Below the pieces are notes generated by a model that did no database searches, was not told where the DNA came from, and was given only the letters and a program-made list of their open reading frames with translations. From positions 7,378,001-7,442,000 of the forward strand of contig NZ_CP036426.1 in NCBI RefSeq assembly GCF_007752535.1: 64,000 nucleotides of DNA, read 5' to 3'. Position 1 is the stretch's first letter. Every line of letters starts with the position of its first letter. The position numbers and the translations under genes are program-made. The stretch is from Tautonia plasticadhaerens. Its GTDB lineage: Bacteria; Planctomycetota; Planctomycetia; Isosphaerales; Isosphaeraceae. Positions 53,954 to 64,000 of the stretch are shown here, piece by piece.

Positions 53954-54796
53954 TCAATCGAAGTAGCCGCATTTCCTCAGGTGTTCGACGCTCCGCTTGA
54001 CCCGGTCGTGCCGGCCGTCGAGGCCCGGCTCGGGCTCGCCGGCGATCCCCTCGATCTCGATGGTATAGGGGCCGGCGAAGCCGACGGCGTCGAGCTGCTG
54101 GCGGATCCGGGCGAAGTCGATCGCGCCGCCGTCGCCGACGGCGGGGAAGTACCAGTCGTCGGGCTTGCCGCGCGAGTCCTTCAGGTGGACGTTGCGGACG
54201 TACTCCTTGACGCGGTCGAGCTGCTCGTGGAGGTCGGCGCCGGGGTTGTAATAGAGGATGTTCCCGGTGTCGTAGTTCAGCCGCACCGCGGGGTGGTGCA
54301 CCTCGAACATCAGGGTGAGCATCTCGTCGGCGTTCTGGGTCGGGCCCTTGTGCGTCTCCAGGGCGATGACCACGCCGAGGATCTGGGCCACGTCGCCGAC
54401 CTTGCGGAGGTTCTCGACCACCGCCCGGCGCTCCTCGGGGGTCGCGGGCTGGCTGGCGCCGGAGACGACCACGTCGACGTCGAACCACTTCTTCGCGAAC
54501 CGGATGCGGCGGGCGGTCAGCTCGGTCCCCTCGTCGGTGCGCATGTCGCCGCCGCCGACGTTGCAGCCGCTCACCTCCACGCCGAGCCTCGCCAGCTCGT
54601 CGCGGAAGGCGCCGGCGGTGGCGTCGTCGGCCTTCTCGGTGACGACGGCCTCCTCGGGGATGACCAGGCCGCCGAAGTCGTGGCCGCGGAGGGCCAGCTC
54701 CAGGTGGTCGATGCCGGCGTCCCGGATCTTCGAGGCGGCGGCGCGGACGCCGGAGGCCCCGTAGCAATTGGAGAAGCAGCTGATGATGCGATTCAT
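53954..54796 (-). CDS. sugar phosphate isomerase/epimerase (TIM barrel)
   Basis: A 280-residue xylose-isomerase-like barrel: MNRIISCFSNCYGASGVRAA, DHLELALRGHDFGG, GVVIALETHKGPTQNAD, AVRLNYDTGNILYYNPG, VRNVHLKDSRGKPDDWYFP and YTIEIEGIAGEPEPG give the Glu-Asp-His-Glu metal site. Substrate unknown. Cytoplasmic, as no signal is present. Its ATG at 54796 overlaps the RNase D stop, so it is coupled to it, and the NagB-like gene follows closely. Confidence 0.9.
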   Translation of the reverse strand: MNRIISCFSNCYGASGVRAAASKIRDAGIDHLELALRGHDFGGLVIPEEAVVTEKADDATAGAFRDELARLGVEVSGCNVGGGDMRTDEGTELTARRIRFAKKWFDVDVVVSGASQPATPEERRAVVENLRKVGDVAQILGVVIALETHKGPTQNADEMLTLMFEVHHPAVRLNYDTGNILYYNPGADLHEQLDRVKEYVRNVHLKDSRGKPDDWYFPAVGDGGAIDFARIRQQLDAVGFAGPYTIEIEGIAGEPEPGLDGRHDRVKRSVEHLRKCGYFD

Positions 54797-56055
54797 GGCG
54801 ATCCGTCGGGCGGGTTCGATGGCGATGGCGATGGCGAGTCGGATTCGTCGGGGGGGTGGGGGGCGACCGGCTCCAGCGCCACGGGCACCTCCGAGCCGAG
54901 GTCGTCGATCCGCAGGGCGAGCCGGCCGGAGAGCACGTCCAGCAGGGCCCGGCCGCATACCTCGGCCCGCCAGCCCTTCAGGATCTCCGGGGTGCGGTCC
55001 CCCGGCTGGCCGTCGAGGTGCCAGCGGACCAGCTCCTTCAGGTCGCCGGTCGAGCCCACCAGCCCGGTCGAGATCTGGTGACGGGCCGCGCAGTGGGCCA
55101 TCGTGGCGTTGAGCAGCGAGGTGAGCATCGACATCCCCGGCAGGTCGTCGACGCGCTCGCCCGGCTCCGGCAGCCGGTCCTCGGGCACCGCGAGGGCCTC
55201 GGCGATCACGTCGAGGATCTCCCGGGACCGGGCGATCAGGGCCGGGCGGTTGAAGTCCCGGAGAGCTTCCAGGTCGCGCTTGTTCCGGGGCTGTCGGCGG
55301 GCGAGGCCGACCATCAGGTCGTCCCGCATCACCTGGCGGATCGGCCGGTTGGAGGCCCGGGCCTCCTCGACGCGCCACTCGTAGAGCCTCCGGGCGACTT
55401 CCAGCGACCTCCGGCCCAGCGTCCCGGCCCCGGGGAGCCGTCGCCAACGGTCCTCCTCGACCCGGCGTCGGACCGACTCGATGAAGTCCGAGAACTCGTG
55501 CTCGGCCCATTCGACCCGCCCCCGGCGCTCCAGGCGGTCCCTCAGGTGGTCGGCCACGTCGAGCAGGTGGGCCACGTCGTCCAGGGCGTATTCGACCTGG
55601 GCGTCGCTCAGGGGCCGTCGCCTCCAGTCGGTCCTCGTCTCGCTGCCGGCCAGGCTCACGCCGACGGTCTGGCCGACGAGATTGACCAGCGACATCGGGT
55701 AGCCGTACCCGGCCAGCCCGGCGGCGACCTGGGTGTCGAACACCCGATCGGGCAGCCGGCCGGTCCGCAATCGGCAGATGCGCAGATCCTCCCCCGAGGC
55801 GTGCATGACCACCTCGACGCCCGGGTCGAGCACCACCTCCCAGAGCGGATCCAGATCCAGCCCCCGGGCCAGCGGGTCGACGGCCACCATGCGGTCCCGG
55901 GTGGCGACCTGCACCAGGCAGAGGACCGGCTCGAAGGTGTCCTCGGAGACGAATTCCGTGTCGAAGGCGAAACGGCCGACCCGGCGGAGGTGCTCCACCA
56001 GCTCGGCCAGCTCGGCGTCGGCGGCGATCAGGGGGTCGACGTGGCGTCCCGGCAT
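54793..56055 (-). CDS. rnd: ribonuclease D-type 3'-5' exonuclease
   Basis: 420 residues. DEDDy exonuclease: FAFDTEFVSEDTFEPVLCLV (Exo I, Asp and Glu), VMHASGEDLRICRLRT (Exo II, Asp), VEYALDDVAHLLDV (Exo III, Tyr and Asp). An HRDC-like helical domain follows (IRQVMRDDLMVGLARRQPRN). RNase D trims tRNA precursors. The C-terminus has a Pro/Ser-rich tail. It is the first gene of a tight operon with amino-sugar genes, an odd partnership. Confidence 0.93.
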   Translation of the reverse strand: MPGRHVDPLIAADAELAELVEHLRRVGRFAFDTEFVSEDTFEPVLCLVQVATRDRMVAVDPLARGLDLDPLWEVVLDPGVEVVMHASGEDLRICRLRTGRLPDRVFDTQVAAGLAGYGYPMSLVNLVGQTVGVSLAGSETRTDWRRRPLSDAQVEYALDDVAHLLDVADHLRDRLERRGRVEWAEHEFSDFIESVRRRVEEDRWRRLPGAGTLGRRSLEVARRLYEWRVEEARASNRPIRQVMRDDLMVGLARRQPRNKRDLEALRDFNRPALIARSREILDVIAEALAVPEDRLPEPGERVDDLPGMSMLTSLLNATMAHCAARHQISTGLVGSTGDLKELVRWHLDGQPGDRTPEILKGWRAEVCGRALLDVLSGRLALRIDDLGSEVPVALEPVAPHPPDESDSPSPSPSNPPDGSP

Positions 56056-56279
56056 CGTTCGGGTCGGTCCCGAGTCCCTGGAGGTTGGGGAGGCGCGGGT
56101 TCGTCCCACGCCGAGGGCCCGACCCTTATCGCACGCCGGGGCCCTCGATGCAAGGGTCGGACCCCGGTCGAGATGCGGCGCCGACGGACCGGTCGAAGCC
56201 CGACCGCGGGCAGAGGGCCAGCCCGCCGCCGCCCCCGGGGCCGGGCAGGTCGACCGGCCGGAGGGTGGGGGCCGGCCGC

Positions 56280-59200
56280 TCATCGCCCCGATCCGCCCGG
56301 CTCGTACAGGACGTACCCGGCCCAGTGGACCGGATCCGAGGTCGAGGGCCGCTCGGCGACCGACCGCCGGGCGAGCTCGAGCGCCCCGGCCGCCGACAGG
56401 CCCCGGGCGAGGCCCCGGTGCAGCCCGGCGGCGAAGGCGGGGGCCGAGTCGGCCGGCGGGTCCCAGAGCGACACGATCACCGCGTCGGCCCCGGCGGCGA
56501 GCCAGCCCGAGGCCAGGTCCCTCCAGGCGGTCGGCGTCGCCACCGGGGGCATCGGCCGGTGCTCCAGCTGGAGCACCACCAGGGCGCCGTCCAGCTCCAG
56601 GCCGAGCACGTCCGACTCCGAGAGCCTCGGCGTCCCCGGGTCGATCCCCCCCGAGCCCTCCGGCCCGAGCAGCAGCTCCGGCCCCCCCGAGCCCGACTCG
56701 GCCGGGTCGAGCACGGCGACGGTCGAGAGCTGGAGCACCCCCCGCGGCCCCCCGGGGCCGATCAGCCGCGCCGGCAAGGACGCCAGATCCCCCGGCACCT
56801 CGACGGCCGGACCCCCCTCCCCGTAGGCCGACCGCACCGCCAGGGCCCCGACCACGTCCCCCGCCGACATCACCAGCACCGACCCCCGCCGATCCCCCCG
56901 CCCCCGGCCCGACGCCCGGGCCCTCCGGATCATCGAGAGCGACGGGGCATACGCGATCGAGGGCAGGCCCGGCCCCCCCTCTCCGGCCGCCAACGCCCCC
57001 AGCGGCACCGCCGAGTCGGCGTCCCCCGGCACGACGACCAGCCGATCGACCCCCGCCAGCCCCCCCCGGAACGGGCCGAGGACCGACTCGACGATCAGGC
57101 GACCCGGCGGCAGGCCGTCGGGCGGCGTCTCCCCGGGCGGGAGGTCCGGCTCGGGGGCGATCGAGAGCAACCCCCCGGGCCCCGGCGTCTCGTCCAGCTC
57201 GCACGACCGACCCCCGTCCCCCAGCGAGGCCCGCCAGAGCCGGGCGGCCCTCCCCAGGGCCGGTCGACCGATCGGCAGCCGCCTCGCCAGCACCGGCCCG
57301 CCGGGGCGGATCAGGAACCCCGACAGCGACTCCGGCCCCGTCGGCGAGACGACCAGCACCGCCTCACCGGCCCCCAGGCGGAGCGAGGAGGGGTCGAACG
57401 GCCGGGTCGGGTCGGCCAGCGAGAGTTCCTGGTGCTCGGCGGCGCGCCGGGCCTCCAGGCCCCGGACCCGGGCCCGGGACCCCGAGTCCGCCCCCCCCAG
57501 GCCGATCGGCGCGAAGGCCGACCGCCTCGCCTCCCGGAGCGCCCCCTCCGTCGTCCCCCCCGGCGGGGCGATCCCCCGGGACGACCGCACCAGGGCCTCC
57601 CCCGACCGCTCGAACCAGCCGACCAGCGCCTCCTGGTCGATCGCACCCAGGGCGTGCCCCGGCATCCCCCCGGCGAGCTGGCACCGGGCCAGGCCCCGGT
57701 GCGCCCGGCCCGCCGCGAAGGCGATCGGCCGGGCCGCCCCCCGGGTCCGGGGCCGGTCCCCCTCGGGGGCGAGGGTCCGGGCCACCCGGGCGTACAGCGC
57801 GATCGCCTCCCCCGGCCTCCCGAGCCGCTCCAGCGCCTCGGCCCGCTCCAGGTCGGCCTCGATCGCCAGGTCCGACCGCCCCGCCTCCCGGTGCGCCTCG
57901 CCCGCGAGGGCGAGCAGCCCGGCCCCCGACGCCAGCGACCCCTCCGAGGCGACGGCCACCCGGCCCCGGACGTGGGCGATCGCCGCCGCCTCCGGCAAGT
58001 CGGACGGGCCCCCGGGCGGCCCGTCGGGGACGGGCCCGACGTCGATCCCCGCCCGACGCCGGACGGTGGCCCGGCGCAGGGCCCATTCCGGATCCGAGGG
58101 CCGATCCTCGGCGAGCACCCGGGCCGCCTCGGCCCATCTCCCCAGCGCGGCGAGGTCGCCGACCCGCTCCAGGGCCGCCTCCCTCGCCAGGTCCTCCCGG
58201 CCGGCCGGCGGCGGGGTCAGCCGGCGGAGCAGGCGGTCGCTGGCGAGGTCGGCCGCCTCCCAGTCCCCCCGGGAGGCGGCCAGGGCGGCGGCGATCCGGT
58301 CGAACTCCGGCGCCTGCCGGATCACCGGGTCGGCCTCGGCGAACCGGGCGACCGGCCCGAAAACCGAGTGGGCCTCGGCCGGCCTCCCCAGGGTGAGCAG
58401 GCCCCAGGAGGCCATCGCCTCGGCGATCCTGGCCTGGCGCTCCAGCCCCGGGTCGGCACTTCGGTACAGGGCAGCGGCCTCCCGGAGCTCCGCCAGCGCC
58501 TCCTCGATCCGGACCGGGTCGGCCGGGGCCCCCCGGCCGTCGAAGCCCGGCAGCAGCAGGCTGCCGGCCCAGAGTCGCAGGTCCGCCTCCCGGGCCGACC
58601 ACCCCCGCTGCTCGAACGTCGACCGCGCCGAATCGATCGGCGGCCGGATGCTCGACGTCGGCCAGCCGGTCGCCTGCCGGACCGCCGCCGTCAGGGCCGC
58701 CACCTCGGCCGAGGCGTCCCGGTCCAGCGCCGGGTCGGCCTCCAGGTCCCTCACGGTCGCCAGCAACCCGTCCAGCTCCCCCCGGTCGAGCCGCCGCCTC
58801 GCCTCGGCGATCCGCCCGGCCAGCCGCTCCGAGGTCGTCGAGGCCCGGCCCTCCCCGGGCCTCGGATGATAGGCCCGGCGATGCGGCCGGAAGGCCAGGT
58901 CCGGCGCCCCGTCCAGGGAGATCGGGCCGGCCGACCTCGCCAGGTCCTCGGCGTCGTAGACGAGCAGGCGGCCGGCCGAGTCCGCCACCGCCAGCCGACG
59001 GCCGGCCGGGTCGAGCGGGTCGCTCGCCACCCGGCCCTCCCCCTCGGCCGGGAGCCCCCGCACCTCCGAGGGCCTCGGCGGCCCTCCTCCCTCGCCCCGG
59101 ACGAGCAGGATCCTCCCCTCGCAGGCGACCACCAGCCCCTCCCCCCGGAGCACCCCCGCCAGCTCGACCCCCTCGGCCGGCAGGGGGAACCGCCAGCGGG

Positions 59201-60026
59201 GGACGCCGTCCCGGTCGGACCGGACCAGCGCCGGGCCGTCGTCCGCCGGGCCGACCAGCCGGACGAGCCCCCCGCCCGCCCCCTCCGCCGCCGAGCGGGC
59301 CGGGCCGATCGGCTCGGCCGGGCCGTCGAGCGACCGGCCCCGCCGCTCCGAGCCGCCGTCGGCCCGGAAGACGAGGACCGACCGGCCGCCGTCGGCGAAC
59401 CCCAGGCCCGTCACCCCCGAGGCCCGGCCGCTCGACCTCGCCTCGGCCCTCGGCGGGCCGATCGCGTCCCGGCCGGGCCGGAACCGGAGCAGCCGGCCGT
59501 CCCCCAGCCCCGCGAGCAGGTCCCCGGGGCCGATCGGCTCGACGGCCAGCGCCCCGATGGCGCCGCAGTCCAGCCGGTCGATCGGCCGGGCGATCGCCCC
59601 GGAGGTGTCCCAGAGCAGCAGGCCCCGGCCGTCCCCGGTCACGGCCCGGTCGGCCGAGCAGAGCGCCAGGCTCGACAGGTCGCCCCGGCCCGGGGGCACC
59701 AGGCCGACCGACACCGGGCCCGGCCCCGCCGGGGGCCGGTAGGCGGCGAACCGGCCGTCGTCGAAGCGGACCCCGAGCCTCCGGTCGGCCGCCGGCCCCC
59801 CCCAGCAGAGCCCCTCGACCCCCGCCGCCTTGCCGCCGGGGGGGGCGAGCGACCGGGCGTCGTCGGCCACCGACGCCTCGGCCTGGTCCCGGGAGGAGGC
59901 GCCCCCCGGGGCGCAGCCGATCCCGAGCGACGCCAGCAGCAGGGCCAGCATCGCCGTCGGGGCCGGGGGCGGCATCCGGGCCGCCGGGTGGGTCCGGCCA
60001 TCCTGGCCGGGCCGGTCCTGGGTCAT
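56280..60026 (-). CDS. large lipoprotein: beta-propeller, TPR and CHAT domain without catalytic dyad
   Basis: 1248 residues. The N-terminus carries a lipoprotein-like signal (AMLALLLASLGIGCAPGG). About 70-400 is a beta-propeller-like region (GLLLWDTSGAIARPIDRLDC, LRFRPGRDAIG). About 430-830 is helical and TPR-like. The C-terminal ~280 residues match CHAT (caspase HetF associated with TPRs) by LVVVPGDADSAVPLGALAAG and AVIVSLWDPPADSAPAFAAG. The usual HFATHG and SACETG motifs read QLSTVAV and VLQLEHR here, so the His-Cys pair is missing. It starts six bases after the hydrolase gene. Confidence 0.85.
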   Translation of the reverse strand: MTQDRPGQDGRTHPAARMPPPAPTAMLALLLASLGIGCAPGGASSRDQAEASVADDARSLAPPGGKAAGVEGLCWGGPAADRRLGVRFDDGRFAAYRPPAGPGPVSVGLVPPGRGDLSSLALCSADRAVTGDGRGLLLWDTSGAIARPIDRLDCGAIGALAVEPIGPGDLLAGLGDGRLLRFRPGRDAIGPPRAEARSSGRASGVTGLGFADGGRSVLVFRADGGSERRGRSLDGPAEPIGPARSAAEGAGGGLVRLVGPADDGPALVRSDRDGVPRWRFPLPAEGVELAGVLRGEGLVVACEGRILLVRGEGGGPPRPSEVRGLPAEGEGRVASDPLDPAGRRLAVADSAGRLLVYDAEDLARSAGPISLDGAPDLAFRPHRRAYHPRPGEGRASTTSERLAGRIAEARRRLDRGELDGLLATVRDLEADPALDRDASAEVAALTAAVRQATGWPTSSIRPPIDSARSTFEQRGWSAREADLRLWAGSLLLPGFDGRGAPADPVRIEEALAELREAAALYRSADPGLERQARIAEAMASWGLLTLGRPAEAHSVFGPVARFAEADPVIRQAPEFDRIAAALAASRGDWEAADLASDRLLRRLTPPPAGREDLAREAALERVGDLAALGRWAEAARVLAEDRPSDPEWALRRATVRRRAGIDVGPVPDGPPGGPSDLPEAAAIAHVRGRVAVASEGSLASGAGLLALAGEAHREAGRSDLAIEADLERAEALERLGRPGEAIALYARVARTLAPEGDRPRTRGAARPIAFAAGRAHRGLARCQLAGGMPGHALGAIDQEALVGWFERSGEALVRSSRGIAPPGGTTEGALREARRSAFAPIGLGGADSGSRARVRGLEARRAAEHQELSLADPTRPFDPSSLRLGAGEAVLVVSPTGPESLSGFLIRPGGPVLARRLPIGRPALGRAARLWRASLGDGGRSCELDETPGPGGLLSIAPEPDLPPGETPPDGLPPGRLIVESVLGPFRGGLAGVDRLVVVPGDADSAVPLGALAAGEGGPGLPSIAYAPSLSMIRRARASGRGRGDRRGSVLVMSAGDVVGALAVRSAYGEGGPAVEVPGDLASLPARLIGPGGPRGVLQLSTVAVLDPAESGSGGPELLLGPEGSGGIDPGTPRLSESDVLGLELDGALVVLQLEHRPMPPVATPTAWRDLASGWLAAGADAVIVSLWDPPADSAPAFAAGLHRGLARGLSAAGALELARRSVAERPSTSDPVHWAGYVLYEPGGSGR

Positions 60027-60032
60027 CTCGGG

Positions 60033-60806
60033 TCAGCCCAGGCGGCCGAGGAAGGAGCGGATCGCCGCGTCGGTCGCCCCGGGGGCCTCCATCGGCGAGA
60101 GGTGGCCGACCCCGGGGATCACGATCAGCTCCCCGTCCGACGCCGCCTCGGCCATCGCCCGGGAGTCCTCCTCGGGCACGATCGCGTCCTCTTCCCCGGC
60201 GATCACCAGCACCGGCACCCGGAGCGACCGGATCACCCCCAGCCGGTCCGGCCGGGTCGCCATCCCTCGCAGGGCCCCGGCGGCCCCCCCGGGGGCGGTC
60301 CTCCGGATCACCCCCGAAATCTGGTCGACCAGCTCCGGCCTGCCGTGCAGGGTCGACGGCGCGAACAGCTTCTCGACCATCCCCGACAGGGACTCGGTCG
60401 AGCCCTCGTGCTCGATCGTCCTCGCCGAGTCCTCCCGCCTGGCGGCCGCCTCCGGCGAGTCGGCGCCGGCCCGGGTGTTCAGGAGTATCAGCCCCCGGAT
60501 CCGGTCCGGGAGTCGTTCCGCCATCGCCAGCGCGACGTATCCCCCCATCGACAGCCCGCCGACGACGTAGGGCGGCTCGATCCCGGCGGCGTCGAGCGTC
60601 TCGACCACGTCGGCGGCCAGCTCCTCCATCGGGTACGGCCCCGGGGGGGTGGGGGACTCGCCGTGGCCCCTCAGGTCGGGCGTGACCACCCGATGGTGGC
60701 CGGACAGCACGCCGATTTGGCCCGACCACATCGTCCGGTCGAGCGGGAAGCCGTGCAGCAGCACGACCGCGGGCCCGCTGCCCTGTTCGTCGAAGGCCAG
60801 CCTCAT
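60033..60806 (-). CDS. alpha/beta fold hydrolase
   Basis: 257 residues. Oxyanion loop LLHGFPLDRTMW, DLRGHGES, nucleophile elbow GLSMGGYVAL, acid in VIAGEEDAIVPEEDS and base in IPGVGHLSPMEAP. This is a typical esterase/haloperoxidase-like hydrolase without signal. Substrate unknown. ATG at 60806 follows GGGGAGGAG. The CHAT lipoprotein gene begins six bases after its end, so they form an operon. Confidence 0.92.
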   Translation of the reverse strand: MRLAFDEQGSGPAVVLLHGFPLDRTMWSGQIGVLSGHHRVVTPDLRGHGESPTPPGPYPMEELAADVVETLDAAGIEPPYVVGGLSMGGYVALAMAERLPDRIRGLILLNTRAGADSPEAAARREDSARTIEHEGSTESLSGMVEKLFAPSTLHGRPELVDQISGVIRRTAPGGAAGALRGMATRPDRLGVIRSLRVPVLVIAGEEDAIVPEEDSRAMAEAASDGELIVIPGVGHLSPMEAPGATDAAIRSFLGRLG

Positions 60807-61088
60807 CGGTGGGGCTCCTCCCCTGGGGTCGCTCGGTCGGCTCGGCTCGTTGCGGACGCTTGGCGACTCGAGGCGCGGGATCACCTCCGTTCGGATCGGT
60901 CGCCGATTCTAAAGCGGATCATGGGCGCGGTCAAACCCGACCCGACCGCCGGCCCATCGGCCCGGGTTCCTCGGATTTCTCATGTCGACGCCGTCGCGCC
61001 CAATTATGCTGAGGCCCAGTCGGGCCACCTCCCCTTTTCGGCCCGCCGACGTCGGCCGGAGGACTGGGTACCGGCGGGGAGCATCGCC

Positions 61089-64000
61089 ATGACCGTCTCG
61101 AACCGATGCCCGACCTGCAACGCCGAGCTCCCCCCGGGCTCCCCGCCGGGCCGATGCCCCCGATGCCCGACGAGCGACGCCGGCCATCACTCCCCGAGCC
61201 CGACCCTCGACGCCACCGCGACGATCACCCCGGCCCGCCTCCCCGGCGCCGACCCGACCCTGGACCACCCCGCCCGGCCCATCGCCGACGCGACCCCGAC
61301 CTCGACCCTCGACGCTTCCCCGCCAACCGCCCCGCCCCCCTCCCCGGCCCTGCCCAGCCCCTTCGGCCCCTTCGAGCTGCAACGGATGCTCGGCCGGGGC
61401 GGCATGGGCGTGGTCTACCGGGCGATCCACAGCGGCTTGAACCGCCCGGTGGCCCTGAAGATGATCCGGGCCGGGCTGCTCGCCGACGCCGACGACCTGC
61501 GACGCTTCCGCAATGAGGCCCGGGCCGTTGCCCTGCTGGACCACCCCGGCATCGTCCCGGTCTTCGAGGTCGGCGAGCACGACGGCCGGCACTACTTCAG
61601 CATGAAGCTCGTCGAGGGCGGCACCCTGGCCGACCTCATCGCCGAGGGCCGGTCCCTCCCCCGAGGCTCGGCCCTGCTGGTGGCCGAGGCCGCCCGGGCG
61701 GTCCACCACGCCCACATCCGGGGCATCCTCCACCGAGACCTGAAGCCGGCCAACATCCTCCTCGACGTCGAGGGCTCTCCCCTCGTCTCCGACTTCGGCC
61801 TCGCCAAGCGGATCGGGCCCGACGCCGACGCCGACACCGAGCAGACCGCCGACGGTGCCATCCTCGGCACGCCCGCCTACATGAGCCCCGAGCAGGCCGG
61901 CGGCCCGGCCGGCTCGATCACCACGGCGGCCGACGTCTACGGCCTCGGCGCCATCCTCTATGCCCTGCTCGCCGGCCGGGCCCCGTTCCAGGGCGAGAGC
62001 ACCGCCGCCGTCCTCGATGCCGTCCGCAATCGCCCCCCCGCCCGCCCCTCGGCCCTCAACCCGGACGTCCCCAGGGACCTGGAGACCATCTGCCTGAAGT
62101 GCCTGGAGAAGGACCCCGCCCGGCGGTACGGCTCGGCCCTGGCCCTCGCCGACGACCTGCTCGCCTGGCTCGACGGCCGGCCGATCGCCGCCCGACGGGC
62201 CGGGCCGGTCGAGCGCGCCCGGCTCTGGTGCCGGAGGAGGCCGGCGGTCGCCGCCCTGGCCGCGGCGGTCGTGCTCGCGGTAGTCGTCGGGGTGGCCTCG
62301 ACGATCGTCCTCCAGGCCCGGGCCAACGCCCGCCTGGAGGCCCAGTACCAGGCCACCCTCAAGGCCGAGGCCCTGGCCGACGACCGCCTCGACCGCGCCA
62401 TGCAGGCCATCGAGGACTACTACACCGGCGTCTCCGCCGACGCGATCCTCGGCCAGCAGGTCCCCGAGGCCGTCCGGGAACGCCTCCTCTCCCGCCCGAT
62501 CCGGTTCTACGAGGAGCTGACCCGGGAGCTGGACGCGAAGGCCGACCCCAGCCCCCGGGAGCGCCTGCTCCTGGCCGAGGGCCGCTCCGGCCTCGGACAG
62601 ATCCTCCTGATCCTCGGCCGGCCGACCGAGGCGGCGGGCCAGTGCCGGGCGGCGATCGCCGTGCTCGATCGCCTGGCGGCCGACCGGCCCGACGACCCCG
62701 AGGCCCGGGCCGCCCTCGCCTCGTCGGAAATCGACCTGGGAAAGATCCTCCACGCCTCCGGCGAGATCCGACTGGCCATCGACGCCTTCGGCCGGGCCGC
62801 CTCCCGCCTCGAGGCCCTCCACGCCGAAGCCCCAGGGGAGGGCTCCTACCGCGACCTGCTCGCCGACGCCTGCAAGAACCTCGGCCAGATGCACCTGCTC
62901 TCCGGCGACTCCCGCTCCGCCCGGACGATCGTCGGCCGGGCCGTCTCGCTCCGGGAGGCCCAAGCAGCCGAGCACCCCGACGACCCCGAGGCCCGCGCCG
63001 GCCTGGCCGACAGCCGCCTCGCCCTCGGGACCGCCCTCTACCTGGGCGGCCAGCTCGACGCGGCGAAGGCCCCCTACAGCCGGGCGATCGAGGGCTACGA
63101 GGCCCTCGCCGCCGAGTCCCCCGACGTGACCTCCTACCGGTCCGGCCTGGCCCTGGCCTGCAACAACCTCAGCGGCGCCCTCGCCCAGCTCGGCGAGTAC
63201 GAGCCGGCCCGGGCCCTGCTGGAGCGGGCCATCGCCCTCCGGGAGGCCCTGGTGGCCGAGCGCCCCGGCGTCCCCAAGTATCGCGACGACCTGGCGATGA
63301 GCCTCTACAACCTCGGCAGCGACGACTGGGGGGACGGGCGGCTCGAACCCGCCCGAGAGGCGTTCCAGCGATCGATCGACCATTACCTCGCGCTGACGGC
63401 CGAGCACCCCGACGTGCCCGAGTACCGCGCCGGCCTGGGGGACAGCTACACCGGGCTCGGCCGGGCCCTGTCCGGCCTCGGCGAGTCCGGCCCCGCCCGG
63501 GACTCCTACGAGCGGGCCGTCTCCTGCTTCGAGGCCGTCTCGGCGGCCCGGCCCGACGAGGGGGACTTCCTCCTCCGACTGGCCGGGGGCTACGCCGACC
63601 TCGCCTCGGCCTGCCAGGAGGCAGGCGAGCTCGACCGCGCCGAGGAGCTCCTCGACCGGGCCGTCCCCCTCCTGGAAGCCCTCTTCGAGGCCCACCCCGA
63701 GGTGATCGAGTACCGGGCCGGCCTGGCCGACGCCTGCCTGAACCTCGGCAACCTGCTCAACGGGCTCGGCCCGGAGGGCTCGGCCCGGGCCGTCGGGGCG
63801 TATGAGCGGGCGATCGCCCACTCCAAGGCCCTGACCGCCGCCCGGCCCGGCCTGGCGGTCGACCGCCTGGCGACCGCCTGGGGATATGGCGGCCTCGGCC
63901 TGGCGCTCCGAAGATCCGGCGACCCGACCCGCGCCCGGGACGCCTACATCGAGGCGATCTCCCGCCTCGACGCCCTCGCCGACGACCACCTCGACGTCCC
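61089..64000 (+). CDS. Ser/Thr protein kinase with N-terminal zinc ribbon, membrane span and TPR receptor domain (runs off the window)
   Basis: At least 970 residues; the 3' end is outside. Residues 7-26 carry two CxxC pairs (CPTC, CPRC), a zinc ribbon. A Pro/Thr-rich linker follows. The kinase domain starts near 95 with LGRGGMGVVYRA; Lys in VALKMI; HRDLKPANI from residue 215; DFGLAKR; GTPAYMSPEQAGG. A transmembrane helix lies at about 385-408 (AVAALAAAVVLAVVVGVAST). Beyond it are many TPR-like repeats (NLGQMHLLSGDSRSA, CNNLSGALAQLGEYEPARAL). It would be a typical planctomycete receptor-like kinase with its TPR sensor outside the membrane. Confidence 0.93.
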   Translation, partial: MTVSNRCPTCNAELPPGSPPGRCPRCPTSDAGHHSPSPTLDATATITPARLPGADPTLDHPARPIADATPTSTLDASPPTAPPPSPALPSPFGPFELQRMLGRGGMGVVYRAIHSGLNRPVALKMIRAGLLADADDLRRFRNEARAVALLDHPGIVPVFEVGEHDGRHYFSMKLVEGGTLADLIAEGRSLPRGSALLVAEAARAVHHAHIRGILHRDLKPANILLDVEGSPLVSDFGLAKRIGPDADADTEQTADGAILGTPAYMSPEQAGGPAGSITTAADVYGLGAILYALLAGRAPFQGESTAAVLDAVRNRPPARPSALNPDVPRDLETICLKCLEKDPARRYGSALALADDLLAWLDGRPIAARRAGPVERARLWCRRRPAVAALAAAVVLAVVVGVASTIVLQARANARLEAQYQATLKAEALADDRLDRAMQAIEDYYTGVSADAILGQQVPEAVRERLLSRPIRFYEELTRELDAKADPSPRERLLLAEGRSGLGQILLILGRPTEAAGQCRAAIAVLDRLAADRPDDPEARAALASSEIDLGKILHASGEIRLAIDAFGRAASRLEALHAEAPGEGSYRDLLADACKNLGQMHLLSGDSRSARTIVGRAVSLREAQAAEHPDDPEARAGLADSRLALGTALYLGGQLDAAKAPYSRAIEGYEALAAESPDVTSYRSGLALACNNLSGALAQLGEYEPARALLERAIALREALVAERPGVPKYRDDLAMSLYNLGSDDWGDGRLEPAREAFQRSIDHYLALTAEHPDVPEYRAGLGDSYTGLGRALSGLGESGPARDSYERAVSCFEAVSAARPDEGDFLLRLAGGYADLASACQEAGELDRAEELLDRAVPLLEALFEAHPEVIEYRAGLADACLNLGNLLNGLGPEGSARAVGAYERAIAHSKALTAARPGLAVDRLATAWGYGGLGLALRRSGDPTRARDAYIEAISRLDALADDHLDV

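Follow-up and report, generated by a model that had tools for sequence, protein, structure and literature searches.

A Tautonia plasticadhaerens propeller-solenoid protein, probably lipid-anchored, carries a CHAT domain without the protease dyad

Among described systems, Csx29 of Craspase is close to the protein studied here in that helical repeats are followed by a CHAT fold. The Craspase CHAT protease is described as having the catalytic dyad H585/C627 and as cleaving Csx30 (PMC9729208). The protein that we found in Tautonia plasticadhaerens shares this order of parts but lacks the dyad, and it has, in addition, a propeller and a signal-like N-terminus. Separase likewise has a helical region and, behind it, a protease fold of the caspase type; the same source refers to it as a protease that uses a His-Cys dyad (PMC9729208), and again it is the dyad that the Tautonia protein is missing. 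DdvA (PDB 8rot, 8rw5), a transmembrane anti-sigma factor, is also a bacterial membrane protein with a CHAT fold. Its aligned sequence, however, retains the ATHG and AACE motifs, and it is described as transmembrane rather than lipid-anchored.

Dead caspase homologues are already known from bacteria. Pseudo-orthocaspases keep the caspase fold with the His-Cys dyad replaced and are reported to account for 8.6% of bacterial orthocaspases (PMC6426788), while 64% of planctomycete metacaspases are reported to retain the dyad (PMC3501461). Pseudo-orthocaspases differ from the Tautonia protein in being built on p20 (Peptidase_C14) with most often Tyr-Ser in place of the dyad, whereas the Tautonia protein is of the CHAT type and has no fixed replacement. 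In the titles, abstract openings and text passages covered by the literature searches, we met neither a dead CHAT domain, as lipoprotein or otherwise, nor a planctomycete CHAT lipoprotein. With regard to the remaining parts of the protein, membrane-coat-like proteins of the PVC superphylum are defined by a propeller at the N-terminus with pairs of stacked helices behind it (PMC2799638). The modeled domain order of the Tautonia protein agrees with this definition and adds to it a C-terminal CHAT fold.

The analysis covered a stretch of 64,000 nucleotides (the window) from the T. plasticadhaerens genome, which comprises 6 contigs and 9,395,224 bases. The features considered below are as follows:

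56280..60026, minus strand: gene for the propeller-solenoid-pseudo-CHAT lipoprotein (1248 aa and a stop codon, from the open reading frame; lipoprotein by probable assignment)
59913..60026, minus strand: signal-like N-terminal stretch up to Cys38, which is presumed to be lipidated on the basis of its invariance
58935..59870, minus strand: WD40-type propeller, residues ~53-364 (model me14e3590031d and VIA-align)
57429..58829, minus strand: helical solenoid, TPR-like, residues ~400-866 (helices in the model)
56304..57425, minus strand: CHAT fold, residues 868-1241 (Pfam, model and structural match)
56712..56735, minus strand: former His motif, residues 1098-1105, LQLSTVAV (alignments; Val1103 at the catalytic His position)
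56556..56576, minus strand: former Cys motif, residues 1151-1157, VLQLEHR (alignments; Glu1155 at the catalytic Cys position)
60033..60806, minus strand: alpha/beta hydrolase gene, directly upstream of the lipoprotein gene (Pfam Abhydrolase_1, E 2.6e-36)
54793..56055, minus strand: ribonuclease D-like gene, downstream of the lipoprotein gene (DNA_pol_A_exo1 and HRDC domains)
60906..60934, minus strand: promoter-like site upstream of the hydrolase gene (10/12 in a sigma-70 consensus scan, which is no proof of function)

The block at 56001-60000 has a G+C content of 0.803, compared with 0.696-0.765 for the other 4-kb blocks of the window. On the opposite strand, at 61085-63998, lies a frame that reads as a serine/threonine kinase-like protein; it includes an extended repeat region and runs past the end of the window.

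Proteins with the whole domain order (hereafter members, the window protein included) were found in seven of 45 Isosphaeraceae genomes, with up to 15 candidates scored per genome. They belong to four genera, as all four genomes of the window's genus and one genome from each of three other genera carry the gene, and 12 further genomes of the 45 matched the profile in the CHAT region only. Across 392 genomes of the phylum, with two candidates scored per genome, no full-length relative besides the window's own was found outside the family and 20 others gave CHAT-only matches, although a very divergent relative may escape such searches. A scan of named genomes returned five loci, three of them members and two CHAT-only, and a second full-length copy was not found in the window's own genome. 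In the members, the reading frame stays open through all of the domains; in genome G026 it is shorter, with part of the solenoid and part of the dyad region gone. Together with the codon estimates given below, these open frames make a pseudogene unlikely. A role as a component of a defence system was also considered and set aside, as PADLOC matched neither the lipoprotein nor the hydrolase.

The C-terminal CHAT fold expected by the original prediction is borne out by profile and by model. Pfam CHAT (PF12770) matched residues 974-1241 with an E-value of 2.9e-14 and 53.6 bits, against a curated cut-off of 24, and the same profile matched all seven members; an NCBIfam scan of the 1248-aa protein gave no family match. 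A model of the CHAT region, built from 30 sequences that included canonical CHAT domains, reached a pLDDT of 83.7 and a pTM of 0.88. Its best structural match was Csx29 (VIA-align Z 23.6, 307 residues, 3.5 A), with the best separase chains at Z ~21, and the region thus has a caspase/separase-like fold; DdvA followed at Z 17.6-18.0 and 20-21% identity. Peptidase_C14 was absent from the Pfam matches at E-values up to 1, with CHAT found instead, and the protein is thus no pseudo-orthocaspase by this measure.

The propeller that had been proposed ahead of the CHAT domain is likewise seen in the model. Residues 52-1248, modeled from seven sequences (mean pLDDT 78.6, pTM 0.75), form a beta-propeller (~53-364), then a helical solenoid (~400-866) and then the alpha/beta domain (868-1241). 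VIA-align placed the propeller against WD40 chains of WDR91, G-beta and beta'-COP with Z 26.8-27.3 over 273-290 aligned residues, which identifies a WD40-type fold, while the WD40 sequence profile gave a weak match in one of the seven members (E 0.063). WDR91, G-beta and beta'-COP WD40 chains are seven-bladed, and by analogy with them the Tautonia propeller probably has seven blades. For the part that had been called a TPR region, the helical solenoid of the model and clear TPR_19 matches in two of the seven members (best E 3.4e-6) speak in favor of the term; in the window protein itself, however, the TPR profile is weak and under the cut-off (E 0.67), and we therefore call it TPR-like. Among the matches that Foldseek gave for the whole model are chains of IFT-A, COPI, nucleoporins and separase, all at low TM-scores.

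The description of the protein as a lipoprotein should be taken with somewhat more caution. It relies on a signal-like stretch and on Cys38, both read from the sequence. Cys38 is invariant in all seven members, where it is preceded by G, S or A. On the other hand, the four Tautonia proteins have Gly at position -3, which gives a relaxed lipobox and makes the assignment less certain. The protein is probably lipid-anchored, in which case it would face the periplasm or the outside.

The loss of the catalytic residues, on which the original prediction was centered, is confirmed by alignment with other CHAT domains. QLSTVAV (residues 1099-1105), where HFATHG was expected, aligns with the HxxTHG motif and places Val1103 at the His, and VLQLEHR (residues 1151-1157), in place of SACETG, aligns with the LSACxT motif and places Glu1155 at the Cys. 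This placement was the same in two separate alignments, the first of the seven members with 33 comparison CHAT domains (30 of which have both residues) and the second with 27 further domains (25 with both, and two not spanning both columns). In the seven members, the His column reads V, P, I, I, R, L and N, and the Cys column E, S, E, E, S, G and V, so that the catalytic His and Cys of a CHAT protease occur in none of them; it should be noted that the G026 member (L015) is shortened near the His column, where its alignment is uncertain. By comparison, both residues are kept in 55 of the 58 comparison domains that span both positions, and these 55 include 19 of 19 CHAT loci taken from the phylum's other families. 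Three domains depart from this: L006 of the window's own genome, with Tyr for His, and L077 and L078 of genus g15, in which both residues are lost. In the CHAT tree, calculated from the seven members and 32 of the first 33 domains, the members form one clade with a local support of 1.0, and the loss is thus most simply placed before their split.

Some observations on other CHAT domains accompany this comparison. L002 and L006 lie ~0.4 kb apart in the window's own genome, the former with His and Cys and the latter with Tyr for His and the Cys kept. L077 and L078 (L082:5625-9569) belong to a repeat-rich protein and fall elsewhere in the CHAT tree, and their dyad loss is probably a second, separate event. 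L138 and L139 are CHAT domains in open frames of 2833 and 2834 codons; the two genomes concerned belong to a different family within the phylum.

An alternative dyad would speak against a dead enzyme, and none that spans the family was found. In the alignment of the seven, no Cys is common to all CHAT regions: the single Cys of the window region, Cys942, is absent from every other member, and Cys1174 occurs in three Tautonia members, with neither the window protein nor the other genera having it. His1234, in the last strand, is the only His invariant in all seven CHAT regions, and His also occupies this position in six of the 33 comparison domains. At position 1099, which corresponds to the first His of the motif, four of the seven members have His, the window protein not being among them, and His1156 and His1203 are present in four and five members, respectively. 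In the Craspase CHAT protease, exchange of the catalytic Cys for Ala or Ser is reported to have abolished cleavage (PMC9729208), which by analogy supports inactivity of the window domain. The reading as a pseudo-protease is thus well supported by sequence and by predicted fold: by these measures, the protein is a CHAT-domain protein but not a CHAT protease.

As to what such a protein might do, we lean, if only moderately, towards an exported and probably lipid-anchored scaffold, made of propeller and solenoid and capped by a CHAT domain that does not cleave. The propeller and solenoid would offer an extended surface that binds partners outside the cytoplasmic membrane, and the dead CHAT domain would cap the solenoid or serve as an interaction module, with no protease chemistry involved. 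The binding platform at the membrane surface that had been suggested before is plausible in this respect, as it fits both the predicted propeller and solenoid and the invariant Cys38.

The conservation data should be considered with regard to this scaffold and to the alternative that deserves most attention, namely that the CHAT domain, being dead, persists as a structural remnant needed for folding or stability only, with function residing in the propeller and solenoid. Five within-genus pairs gave CHAT dN/dS values of ~0.16, 0.47, 0.29, 0.32 and 0.30, which, as simple NG86 point estimates without errors and at high dS, are approximate and suggest that the coding sequence is constrained. The segment around the former active site (1060-1170) had a higher dN/dS than the CHAT domain in four of the five pairs and an equal one in the fifth. 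Between genera, CHAT values of ~0.4 to 0.8 were obtained with dS near saturation and are, therefore, little informative. The identity between the window protein and L010 is 58% for CHAT, 73% for the propeller and 66% for the solenoid; within the genus, CHAT is less conserved than the other two parts, a difference that largely disappears in comparisons between genera. Such weaker within-genus conservation fits a weakened role of the domain and counts against the scaffold that we favor, as do the relaxed lipobox, the shortened member of G026 and the presence of the gene in no more than seven of the 45 genomes.

In blocks of 20 residues across the seven members, 721-740 is the best conserved (0.69), followed by two blocks of the CHAT region, 921-940 (0.67) and 1221-1240 (0.64). 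Blocks within 1041-1160 score 0.21-0.28, except for 1101-1120, which holds Val1103 (0.40). Since the surroundings of the old active site are poorly conserved relative to 921-940 and 1221-1240, the evidence leans against this site as a binding site, and the CHAT domain appears to be under selection still, though mainly on account of parts other than that site. A structural remnant would account for these poorly conserved surroundings, for the faster change of CHAT within the genus and for dyad positions that have no conserved substitutes. It agrees less well with the second and third best conserved blocks of the whole protein lying in this domain, and with the retention of the domain in all seven members, and we regard it as unlikely, though a serious contender. 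Under the scaffold reading, interaction might instead involve the N-terminal segment ~921-940 and the C-terminal strand 1231-1241, away from the old active site.

The protein might also serve as a regulator, as decoy or partner, of a different cellular protease of the CHAT or caspase-like type. The window's own genome does hold CHAT stretches with an intact dyad (L001-L004 and L008); however, its other CHAT matches are more than 800 kb distant and the predicted location of the protein is outside the cytoplasm, which makes such regulation improbable.

The neighboring genes bear on the claim that the alpha/beta hydrolase is an operon partner of the lipoprotein. In all seven bearing genomes, the lipoprotein gene sits between the hydrolase and RNase D genes; RNase D follows downstream, directly in five of the loci and after one extra gene in the other two. 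The hydrolase stop codon and the lipoprotein ATG are separated by 6 bp, and the sigma-70 consensus scan found no promoter-like site between the two genes. A single transcript is suggested by this short gap together with the lone promoter-like site ahead of the hydrolase gene, and co-transcription is likely. The partnership itself is weaker. The hydrolase was found in 41 of the 45 genomes, RNase D in 41 and both in 39, and in 29 of these 39 they lie 13-270 bp apart with no lipoprotein gene. Seven of the other ten have the lipoprotein gene, one has a gap of 1262 bp occupied by an esterase-like gene, one has the two genes far apart and one has them on different contigs. In addition, no export signal is evident from the sequence at the start of the hydrolase, and the two products are, therefore, probably in different compartments. 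As hydrolase and RNase D mostly occur together without the lipoprotein gene, a shared transcript is a safer reading than a shared complex, and a physical complex with the hydrolase, for all the 6 bp spacing and the constant adjacency, seems to us very improbable.

The same neighbors provide some information on the history of the gene. No lipoprotein remnants were detected beside RNase D in genomes G005, G006, G012, G015 and G043 (tblastn, E up to 0.01). In a tree of hydrolase and RNase D, with g19 chosen as the root, the seven bearers do not form a clade; with support of 13-86 at the key nodes, this tree is compatible with one gain followed by losses as well as with transfer. An esterase-like gene of 327-344 aa, so named from its GGGWR stretch, lies between the same neighbors in three genomes (L087:11942-12976, L088:6760-7770 and L094:1410-2393). 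Two of these also have the lipoprotein gene next to it, whereas G005 does not.

Residual cleavage by other residues, such as the Ser at the Cys position of two members or the Cys1174 common to three Tautonia members, is hardly credible, given that the catalytic-position His is found in none of the seven, that the Cys position holds Glu in three, Gly in one and Val in one, that Cys1174 is missing from the window protein and the other genera, and that the Cys-to-Ser form of Craspase is reported to be inactive (PMC9729208).

For annotation, the CHAT label by itself would lead to this protein being mislabelled as a protease. In a wider form of the scaffold reading, which we consider doubtful, the protein would be a periplasm-facing, membrane-coat-like planctomycete scaffold in which a separase-type protease fold has become a permanent structural or adaptor module; if true, it would represent a bacterial counterpart of the propeller-solenoid coats. 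The seven members present the CHAT-fold counterpart of the p20 pseudo-caspases: on the separase-like branch, too, the chemistry has been given up, here across four genera and at a single gene position. They provide a defined protein for studying the use of a non-cleaving caspase fold in bacteria whose membranes are unusual.
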